A DNA stretch of 42,357 nucleotides from Patescibacteria group bacterium (GTDB taxonomy: Bacteria; Patescibacteriota; Minisyncoccia; Minisyncoccales; RBG-13-36-15). Below the pieces are notes generated by a model. That model saw nothing but the letters and a program-made list of their open reading frames with translations. It made no database searches and was not told the DNA's origin. The stretch is taken from the NCBI GenBank assembly GCA_018609195.1, contig JAHCSE010000007.1:1-42357 (forward strand), in the 5' to 3' direction. This document shows positions 5,380 to 6,981 of the stretch, in pieces. The stretch's first letter is position 1; each line of letters begins with the position of its first letter. A program made the translations under genes and the position numbers.

Positions 5380-5421
5380 CTCGGTCTCTCGAACCGAGTA
5401 CAAGGTTTTAATTCGGTGACT
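5380..5421 (+). repeat. Possible divergent copy D of the intergenic repeat
   Basis: ctcggtctctcgaaccgagtacaaggttttaattcggtgac compared with cggtctagaacctgcgttttaagggggaattcggtggc. Confidence 0.4.
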
Positions 5422-5468
5422 GGGGCTGGCACAGAACCATACGGTTCGTGCCTAGCCACGCACCGAAT
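5411..5468. repeat. Nested palindromic element flanking the tRNA-Gln 3' side
   Basis: ATTCGGTG/CACCGAAT outer stem with GGCTGGCAC...GTGCCTAGCC and AACC-atac-GGTT inside. Confidence 0.8.
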
Positions 5469-5479
5469 GGTGCTGTGGC

Positions 5480-5548
5480 TGCGGGGCTTGGATTCGAACC
5501 AAGATTAGTTGGACCAAAACCAACCGTCCTACCGTTAGACTACCCCGC
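5480..5548 (-). tRNA. tRNA-Gln(TTG), CCA not encoded
   Basis: GCGGGGTAGTCTAACGGTAGGACGGTTGGTTTTGGTCCAACTAATCTTGGTTCGAATCCAAGCCCCGCA; anticodon loop TTTTGGT. Confidence 0.93.
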
Positions 5549-5789
5549 ATTGGTTAATTTTTTTCATCAACTCCTTTTTACCTTTTGCAGTTTTATAATA
5601 TCTTTCTTTACTAAACGCTTGATGTTTTTCGGAATATTCTTCTTTGAATATTAGATTAAGTGGTTTTCTATGTTTAGTCGATTGAACTTTTCCTGAATTA
5701 TGCTCGGATACTCTCTTATTTAAATTAGAAGTACATCCTATATAAAAATTATTATCCTTTAAACTTTTGAGAATATAAACTATATACAT
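5535..5789 (-). CDS. GIY-YIG family endonuclease; ORF ends inside the tRNA-Gln gene
   Basis: MYIVYILKSLKDNNFYIGCTSNLNKRVSEHNSGKVQSTKHRKP; ORF track start at 5840 is an over-extension. Confidence 0.88.
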   Translation of the reverse strand: MYIVYILKSLKDNNFYIGCTSNLNKRVSEHNSGKVQSTKHRKPLNLIFKEEYSEKHQAFSKERYYKTAKGKKELMKKINQCGVV

Positions 5790-5796
5790 ACAAATT

Positions 5797-5874
5797 AGTC
5801 CTACCGTTAGCCTCGCCCATAGGCTCTGCCCGTGGGGCAACGCCCTAGGGCTACGGCCGAGGGACTACCCCGCA
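5797..5874 (-). other. Duplicated 5' half of tRNA-Gln, split by a 53-nt GC-rich palindromic insert
   Basis: Minus strand TGCGGGGTAGTC-[53 nt]-CTAACGGTAGGAC; joined, it equals the first ~23 nt of the intact tRNA-Gln. Confidence 0.88.
5811..5863. repeat. 53-nt palindromic insert in the tRNA fragment
   Basis: cctcgcccataggctctgcccgtggggcaacgccctagggctacggccgaggg; CCTCG/CGAGG, CCATAG/CTACGG and TGCCC/GGGCA stems. Confidence 0.8.
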
Positions 5875-5880
5875 ATGCGC

Positions 5881-6981
5881 CTATTGCTCTTTTTGTGTTG
5901 CTTCTATTGTAGCTAATTCTAAAGGTAATTGAGGGATTGAGGAGTATTTCATTTTATTTTCAGCCTCCAGAAAGAGAGTTAAAATCTGACTCAGGTCTGC
6001 TTCTTTGAAAGTAAAAGCTTGGTTTTTTAGCTTTTGGTGTTCCTCCTTGGTTAAGCCGGAAATCACAGGGTTTGCGAGATCAGGATTTATTTTTATAATT
6101 AAAATTTGTCTTAAATATTTAATTAAGGCTTTCGTAAATTCCTGGGGATCTAAACTTCGATTAAATGTTTCTTGTAAAAACGTAACGGCTTTTGGAGTCT
6201 CTTTTTTTGAAAGGAAATCAACAAATTGGCTCACCAAGACAGTATCAACAATTCCCAGTAAATCCTTGATATCTTCTGTTTTGATTTCTTTTTCCTTTCC
6301 TGAAAAAGTGATAACCTGATCTAACAAGCTTTCTGCATCCCGGAAAGAGCCTCCGGAATTGAGAGCAATTAACTCCAAAGCTCCCTTCTCGATTTTTAGA
6401 CTTTCCTTTTTGGAAATAATTCCCAATCTTTTTAAAATTTCAGGCAGAGTTAATTTTCGAAAATCAAATCTCTGGCACCTGGAAATAATAGTTGGAATCA
6501 TTTTATGAATTTCGGTGGTGGCTAAGATAAAAATGGCATGGGCCGGCGGTTCTTCTAAAGTTTTCAAAAGGGCATTGGCAGCTTCTTTTGTAATTTGATG
6601 ACTCTCATCGATTATATATACTTTATATTTTGATTTTGAAGGAACAAATCTTATTCCCTCTCTTAATTCTCTTATTTCATCGATTCCCCTGTGCGAGGCG
6701 GCATCAATTTCAATTAAATCCAAAGAGCTGCTTTGATTTATTTCAAGACAGGATTGGCATTTATTGCAAGGCTCGAAATCTTTCTTATCCTCACAATTTA
6801 CAGCTTTGGCTAAAAGACGGGCAATAGTGGTTTTCCCACTTCCTCTTGGGCCAGAAAATAGATAGGCATGGGAAACTATTCCAGCAGAAACGGCATTGGT
6901 GAGAGTTTGAACCACATGTTCTTGACCGACAATCTCAGAAAAGGTTTGCGGCCGATATTTGCGGTATAAAACTAGTGACAT
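5881..6981 (-). CDS. dnaX: DNA polymerase III subunit gamma/tau
   Basis: LYRKYRPQTFSEIVGQEHVV, Walker A GPRGSGKTT, Cys zinc motif, TTEIHKMIPTIISRCQRF. Confidence 0.96.
   Translation of the reverse strand: MSLVLYRKYRPQTFSEIVGQEHVVQTLTNAVSAGIVSHAYLFSGPRGSGKTTIARLLAKAVNCEDKKDFEPCNKCQSCLEINQSSSLDLIEIDAASHRGIDEIRELREGIRFVPSKSKYKVYIIDESHQITKEAANALLKTLEEPPAHAIFILATTEIHKMIPTIISRCQRFDFRKLTLPEILKRLGIISKKESLKIEKGALELIALNSGGSFRDAESLLDQVITFSGKEKEIKTEDIKDLLGIVDTVLVSQFVDFLSKKETPKAVTFLQETFNRSLDPQEFTKALIKYLRQILIIKINPDLANPVISGLTKEEHQKLKNQAFTFKEADLSQILTLFLEAENKMKYSSIPQLPLELATIEATQKEQ

Follow-up and report, generated by a model that had tools for sequence, protein, structure and literature searches.

tRNA genes are classical docking sites of large integrase-driven elements. 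Among the GIY-YIG proteins, Ssn is a single-stranded-DNA family, and the UPF0213 and SLX1 nucleases, which have a single GIY-YIG domain and are nearest by sequence and fold to the protein described here, are to our knowledge not known as mobile genes.

The segB gene of T-even phages encodes a free-standing GIY-YIG homing endonuclease and lies beside tRNA genes (PMC2988022, PMC13096335); the enzyme cuts within tRNA genes and promotes amplification through recombination (PMC13096335). By analogy, SegB is the closest known system in behaviour to the units described here: in both, a GIY-YIG gene adjoins tRNA genes of several isotypes, there is overlap or microhomology between the tRNA 5' end and the 3' end of the gene, and there are tandem arrays. 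However, SegB is phage-borne and larger, while the present family is chromosomal, consists of proteins of 80-85 amino acids, and is almost missing from phage records. A hairpin-bearing tRNA remnant and strict same-strand abutment are not described for SegB.

Other systems share part of this architecture. Integrase-driven elements of tRNA genes, such as genomic islands and phages (for example PYG1, PMC9897764), likewise leave one complete and one partial tRNA copy after insertion, but they are about 9-23 kb in size and carry integrases (PMC9897764), whereas the units here are about 330 bp with one nuclease gene, their remnants can come from either half of the tRNA, and the remnants contain hairpins. 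In the same bacterial radiation, the GIY-YIG insertion sequences of CPR rRNA genes (PMC11270868) also place a GIY-YIG gene in a structured-RNA gene and are not introns by sequence; unlike the present units, they interrupt the rRNA, a duplication by which an intact copy is retained was not described for them, and their spread was judged by the authors not to occur by homing. REP/RAYT and Rickettsia palindromic elements (PMC3733652) are short GC-rich hairpins that insert cleanly, also inside genes. RAYTs are tyrosine (HUH) transposases, whereas the hairpins here are mainly found in tRNA remnants that adjoin a GIY-YIG gene, and the REP/RAYT system was rejected for this locus since the associated ORF encodes a GIY-YIG protein and not an IS200/IS605-type tyrosine transposase. 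No published account of a chromosomal tRNA-gene GIY-YIG family was found in the searched literature, outside of which most subscription papers fall, and these units are apparently an undescribed family of minimal mobile elements, a novelty that is provisional.

A GIY-YIG gene between a tRNA remnant and an intact tRNA-Gln

The locus lies in the window, which is the whole stretch of 42,357 nucleotides of DNA that was analyzed. On the minus strand the order from 5' to 3' is dnaX, bases 1-12 of tRNA-Gln, a hairpin, tRNA bases 12-24, 8 nt, the GIY-YIG ORF, and an intact tRNA-Gln(TTG). The features, all on the minus strand, are as follows:

5881..6981, minus strand: dnaX (clamp-loader subunit gamma/tau), from Pfam and synteny in relatives; the ancestral upstream neighbour of tRNA-Gln(TTG)
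5883-5881, minus strand: dnaX stop codon, by direct reading
5863..5874, minus strand: part one of the tRNA-Gln remnant, tRNA bases 1-12, TGCGGGGTAGTC, identical to the intact tRNA
5811..5862, minus strand: GC-rich hairpin CCTCGGCCGTAG..GGGCGAGG, 52 nt, inserted in the D-arm of the remnant
5798..5810, minus strand: part two of the tRNA-Gln remnant, tRNA bases 12-24, CTAACGGTAGGAC, identical to the intact tRNA
5535..5789, minus strand: GIY-YIG nuclease gene, 84 amino acids plus stop, ATG at 5789 (PF01541, E=9.6e-16)
5476..5549, minus strand: intact tRNA-Gln(TTG), from ARAGORN and RF00005 (63.4 bits)

This order had been read in a first-pass annotation of the window and was confirmed to the base. 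The fragment, which had been given as the first ~23 nt of the tRNA, is identical to tRNA bases 1-24 once joined (24/24), and the full 24-mer of the joined remnant occurs once in the 854-kb genome. The insertion that splits it is 53 nt when the doubled C is counted. The ORF and tRNA-Gln(TTG) overlap by the last 15 nt of the ORF, so that, as had also been noted, tRNA bases supply the ending CGVV and the stop: the final codons are TGC GGG GTA GTC TAA, with the stop TAA at 5537-5535 inside the tRNA. An AGGA in the second part of the remnant sits 9 nt ahead of the ATG of the GIY-YIG ORF and could be its ribosome-binding site.

The unit is roughly 330 bp in size and its sole gene is the GIY-YIG nuclease. 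There was no integrase gene, as the interval from the remnant to the tRNA holds only the GIY-YIG ORF, and there was no indication of a group I intron, with no intron family match at the locus and a tRNA that is intact and uninterrupted.

Empty and occupied dnaX/tRNA-Gln sites

Comparison with empty tRNA-Gln loci in relatives, a check proposed in the first-pass annotation, identified two genomes of the same family but other genera (G001 and G002) in which dnaX is directly followed by tRNA-Gln, with spacings of 4 nt and 16 nt. The GIY-YIG gene is missing from these related alleles at the same site. dnaX and tRNA-Gln matches adjoin in many relatives, and 0-56 nt separate them in 13 genomes of the order that lack the GIY-YIG gene (G001 and G002 included), against 256-351 nt where it is present. 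The two same-family empty sites, and recurrence at other tRNAs and in other lineages, bear out the part of the initial proposal that described a compact insertion sparing its tRNA; the mobility that was part of the same proposal is something that we infer.

The site is filled by a clade A nuclease in the window and in G038, whose nuclease is a near relative of that of the window, and by a clade B nuclease with another hairpin in G121, L110, and L137, whose families differ from those of the clade A hosts. Two nuclease clades at one locus in different families are as expected for independent insertions, and the occupancy of dnaX/tRNA-Gln is a pattern of repeated insertion and not of a single inherited gene.

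Several related loci depart from the usual structure. One (L010, G049:C98) has a spacing of 295 nt between dnaX and tRNA-Gln without an intact GIY-YIG ORF and is possibly a decayed unit. The same ORF without a tRNA duplication, which had been named as evidence that would count against the initial proposal, was encountered once and in mild form: in L137 (G051) the ORF has no upstream fragment, but a full tRNA-Gln copy bearing a hairpin lies downstream. In L039 (G043), L137 (G051), and L227 (G006), the intact tRNA-Gln is followed downstream by additional copies, with no GIY-YIG gene between, and these copies bear the same hairpins in the D-loop and T-arm.

A tRNA-associated GIY-YIG family in several phyla

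Relatives were collected with a profile of five such proteins (A1) from tRNA-Gln units, and the counts cover relatives of that profile and not all small GIY-YIG proteins. Two retrievals were made with the protein only, blind to tRNAs, from 85,462 species genomes and from 247 genomes of the order. The profile matched in 159 of the 247 genomes, with 0-9 copies per genome, so that about two thirds of the genomes searched in this order of ultra-small bacteria have the family. There were 173 distinct ORFs, 87 from the species genomes and 86 from the order genomes.

A tRNA or tmRNA gene was found no more than 120 bp from the ORF for 106 of the 173 (62/87 and 44/86), and about 40% of family members had no adjoining tRNA. 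The nearby RNA genes were tRNAs in 104 cases and tmRNAs in two, 19 tRNA isotypes were hit, and all 106 were on the same strand as the ORF. Hosts include Patescibacteria, Bacteroidota, Ignavibacteriota, Chlorobiota, Marinimicrobia, Elusimicrobiota, Omnitrophota, Planctomycetota, and Margulisbacteria. Thus, the window unit is one copy of a widespread tRNA-associated GIY-YIG family found in several bacterial phyla. Carriage of the family by phages or plasmids was almost nil, with a member in 3 of 50,697 phage records and 1 of 72,556 plasmid records.

The commonest layout was that of the window, in which the ORF reads directly into the tRNA 5' end (75 of the 102 testable units), and the stop codon of the ORF was inside the tRNA in 30 of 71 ORF-before-tRNA cases. 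In the remaining 27 testable units the ORF was 3' of the intact tRNA.

Some family members were beside tmRNA or SRP RNA genes (L063, L083, L114, L118, L120, and L136) and had no detectable remnant; a tmRNA remnant was sought beside L083, L114, L118, L120, and L136, and none was found. The tmRNA-associated members include one supported clade.

Remnants of the adjoining tRNA

The far side of each ORF was aligned with its own tRNA, using all tRNAs of other isotypes as the control and an empirical p ≤ 0.01. An own-tRNA remnant was detected in 68 of the 102 testable units, 52 of the 75 with the ORF before the tRNA and 16 of the 27 with the ORF after it. Control tRNAs from the same collection without a GIY-YIG neighbour had a remnant in only 1/39 and 2/40 cases. 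Copies therefore do abut tRNA ends together with duplicated tRNA parts, as the first reading had suggested should be checked, and because most units elsewhere carry such a remnant while the controls do not, the remnant at the window locus is not a matter of chance. Duplication of the tRNA 5' half, which had been described for the window, is correct there but is not a general rule, since in the 27 units with the ORF 3' of the tRNA the remnant is mostly a 3' half.

When remnants were compared with same-isotype tRNAs of other hosts, the best match was the unit's own tRNA in 49 of 65 (with 6 additional ties; 9.2 expected), which indicates that remnants are local tRNA copies or that their similarity is kept by gene conversion. 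Hairpin apart, some remnants are perfect (tRNA-Ser, 90/90 in L109; tRNA-Cys, 63/63 in L188). The longest exact repeat between the two tRNA copies had a median of 17 nt. In G136 the remnant (GCGGGG) differs from the neighbouring tRNA (GCCGAG). One control tRNA-Gln (L160) had a significant upstream remnant with no GIY-YIG gene nearby, and is possibly the site of a lost unit.

Hairpins in the remnants

A GC-rich stem of 6 bp or more was present in 42 of the 68 remnants, compared to 17 of 244 (7%) length-matched intergenic windows from the same loci (Fisher p=1e-20). By this strict test 26 of the 68 remnants have no hairpin; a GC-rich hairpin was found in 52 of the 68 once 30 nt on either side were added. 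Many of the hairpins are clean insertions with zero tRNA bases lost, at sites in the D-arm, the anticodon loop (33^34), and the T-arm. Of the clean insertions, about half fall in loops and the remainder in stems, mostly of the D-arm, and a confinement of hairpins to loops was not supported.

In tRNA-Gln units there were four nuclease clades, each with its own hairpin class and position: CCTCGGCCGTAG at 11/12, CCTGCCTGCGCAGGCAGG at 9/10, CCCCGCC..CCCGC at 18/19, and CCTGGCCGG at 11/12. The concordance of clade and hairpin over 14 Gln units had a permutation p of about 3e-6, a figure that still includes host relatedness. The window hairpin class is at the same place in G038, G136, L048, L050, L131, and L133. 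Because class and position follow the nuclease clade in these units, the hairpin looks like part of the unit, and it is probably that and not a later accident. The earlier suggestion that the window unit was later hit by a second palindromic element did not hold up, as a D-arm hairpin is the rule, and a single late palindrome insertion was rejected as a general account. In one remnant (L082/G120) clade A and clade C hairpins occur together and the nuclease is that of the second class, as if one cassette had replaced another.

The strict window hairpin has one copy in its own genome and 0-2 copies per genome in 8 of 147 relatives. It was therefore rejected as a dispersed high-copy repeat of the window genome, although another class is commoner elsewhere. 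Apart from the units, CCTGCCTG..CAGGCAGG is present in 12-15 copies in G120 and G071, and four type-A copies also lie elsewhere. Since hairpin classes are also found elsewhere in the genomes, trans-acting or neutral insertion is a possible source of them. One class is common to Ser, Lys, Asn, and Gln units, and no hairpin was found at the other end of the unit. Folded as RNA by itself, the 52-nt window hairpin reaches -29.3 kcal/mol (z=-3.0 versus shuffles), and the hairpin with its flanks was unexceptional when folded with DNA parameters (z=-0.7). A type-A hairpin within the dnaX coding sequence, in apparent frame, was seen in L045 (G120:C4:129635-129660) and resembles a Rickettsia palindromic element.

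The nuclease and its phylogeny

The window protein belongs to the GIY-YIG superfamily, has the conserved Tyr, Arg, and Glu, and is a minimal UPF0213/SLX1-like domain with no DNA-binding extension. The nearest structures by sequence were of UPF0213 proteins, 1zg2 (E=5e-11) and 1ywl (1.5e-9), and the PHROG homing-endonuclease family gave only a weak match (E=6.5e-4). The AlphaFold model has a confident GIY-YIG fold (pLDDT 94.6), for which UPF0213 and SLX1 were the nearest in structure comparison; 1zg2 was the top match, but this NMR model superposes poorly (rmsd 7.4). Residues Y5, Y16, G18, R26, H30, E62, and K66 are present in 99-100% of the 173 sequences, and this conservation of catalytic residues indicates that nuclease activity is under selection.

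The nuclease tree required 56 changes of tRNA isotype, compared to a shuffled minimum of 76. One clade of tRNA-Ser nucleases (support 79) spans Patescibacteria, Omnitrophota, and Chlorobiota. On the evidence of these sequences, the grouping by isotype fits target specificity with occasional switching, and vertical descent within lineages adds to the clustering.

Possible modes of insertion and spread

The account that we favor, and consider fairly probable, is that the unit is a minimal intron-less homing cassette on tRNA genes. The nuclease would cut a tRNA gene of one particular isotype that lacks the insertion, with the D-arm or the anticodon arm as the probable site of the break. Repair would then copy a cassette-bearing tRNA locus, which would put the nuclease gene next to the tRNA or within it, and a complete tRNA would be preserved by the homologous tRNA portion that the cassette brings along. 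The tRNA half that is displaced would persist beyond the gene as a remnant, no longer functional and with a GC-rich hairpin in one of its arms. This hairpin may mark the outer end of the cassette, or it may keep the remnant from being cut or from being looped out when the two tRNA copies recombine. There is a precedent in SegB, the tRNA-adjoining GIY-YIG homing enzyme, which cleaves within tRNA genes and works through recombination (PMC13096335). Other points speak against homing: for an enzyme that homes to a specific site, an 84-residue domain with no DNA-binding module is small, and UPF0213 and SLX1, its closest relatives of solved structure, do not act in homing. The presumed target sequence is retained in the intact tRNA, which leaves self-immunity unexplained, and about 40% of the family has no tRNA neighbour. 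Furthermore, gene conversion instead of recent insertion could maintain the identity of remnant and tRNA, the G136 remnant mismatches its neighbouring tRNA, and the GIY-YIG insertions of CPR rRNA genes were judged to be outside homing (PMC11270868). If the unit is selfish, then with one 84-residue nuclease and borrowed tRNA sequence it would approach the smallest known autonomous mobile gene in size. It makes testable the idea of a homing gene that lives on an essential gene without destroying it, and the natural tRNA isotype of each nuclease clade provides concrete substrates for this nuclease subgroup.

Amplification of the kind associated with SegB could instead underlie the units: the nuclease would trigger tandem duplication of gene and tRNA via short tRNA repeats, the extra tRNAs would decay, lateral homing would be rare, and the change in tRNA dosage would be a benefit or a by-product. 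Tandem tRNA-ORF-tRNA-ORF arrays with duplicated terminators (L080, L071, L096, L052, L098, and L108) and full-length extra tRNA copies (L078, L096, and L109) argue for this, as does the amplification of tRNA-Tyr by SegB via microhomology of the tRNA 5' end and segB 3' end (PMC13096335), the same overlap that is seen here. Yet the units are mostly single, and amplification accounts neither for the first copy between dnaX and tRNA-Gln, which is empty in G001 and G002, nor for distant hosts grouped by isotype on the nuclease tree, making it unlikely as the main process. The hairpin could instead be the unit's own end in a transposon-like cassette, in which a GIY-YIG protein acting on hairpins (SLX1-like, structure-specific, possibly on single-stranded DNA) would insert hairpin-headed DNA into tRNA arms in a manner comparable to RAYT/REP. 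Clean insertions without loss of tRNA bases, many of them in D-, anticodon, or T-loops, are consistent with this, as are hairpin classes that track the nuclease clade in Gln units, the L082/G120 remnant that resembles two successive invasions, and the nearest folds, UPF0213 and SLX1. We consider it quite doubtful in view of the hairpin classes found away from units, the class common to units of four isotypes, the other end that has no hairpin, and the 26 of 68 remnants that have none by the strict test. A broader formulation, which we regard as tentative and on balance rather unlikely, is a new class of mobile element: a ~330-bp hairpin-headed cassette with a structure-specific GIY-YIG nuclease, for which tRNA-gene arms, possibly in folded single-stranded form, would be both the target and the regenerated own end, with the hairpin, insertion point, and isotype set by the nuclease clade, in several phyla.

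It is very improbable that a housekeeping repair nuclease of the UPF0213 type lies by chance in tRNA operons where unrelated processes produced the tRNA duplications and hairpin repeats. Genes of UPF0213 members, YazA for one, reside stably on chromosomes, and the near absence of the family from phages and plasmids would agree with such a role, but its patchy presence, the clean same-family empty sites, and the range of 0-9 copies per genome do not, and it is most strongly disfavored by tRNA remnants that occur essentially only beside GIY-YIG genes. Most of the assemblies are from metagenomes and such a unit lies at the end of some contigs (G006), as an assembly or annotation artefact would predict; the same architecture in well over 50 independent assemblies from many phyla, including single-contig genomes (G091), with intact reading frames, makes an artefact extremely improbable. 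The units would also account for tRNA fragments of a kind that may be miscalled by annotation tools, and they offer a natural record of hairpin repeats entering tRNA arms.

Related sequences in the window genome

Four paralogues of the window nuclease are encoded in the same genome (G000 C5:565-789, C6:47012-47245, C21:30632-30862, and C4:22659-22889). One of these is behind tRNA-Gln(CTG) and the other three have no tRNA within 400 bp. Directly 3' of tRNA-Gln(TTG), at window positions 5380-5475, there is a hairpin-rich repeat, CACCATTCGGTG..GCACGAACCGTATGGTTCTGTGC. Behind tRNA-Gln(CTG), and ahead of another GIY-YIG gene of this family, the repeat forms a 3-fold tandem array; it also occurs at a third place, which has no tRNA. 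These other occurrences are at G000:C5:792-971 and G000:C18:10604-10704.
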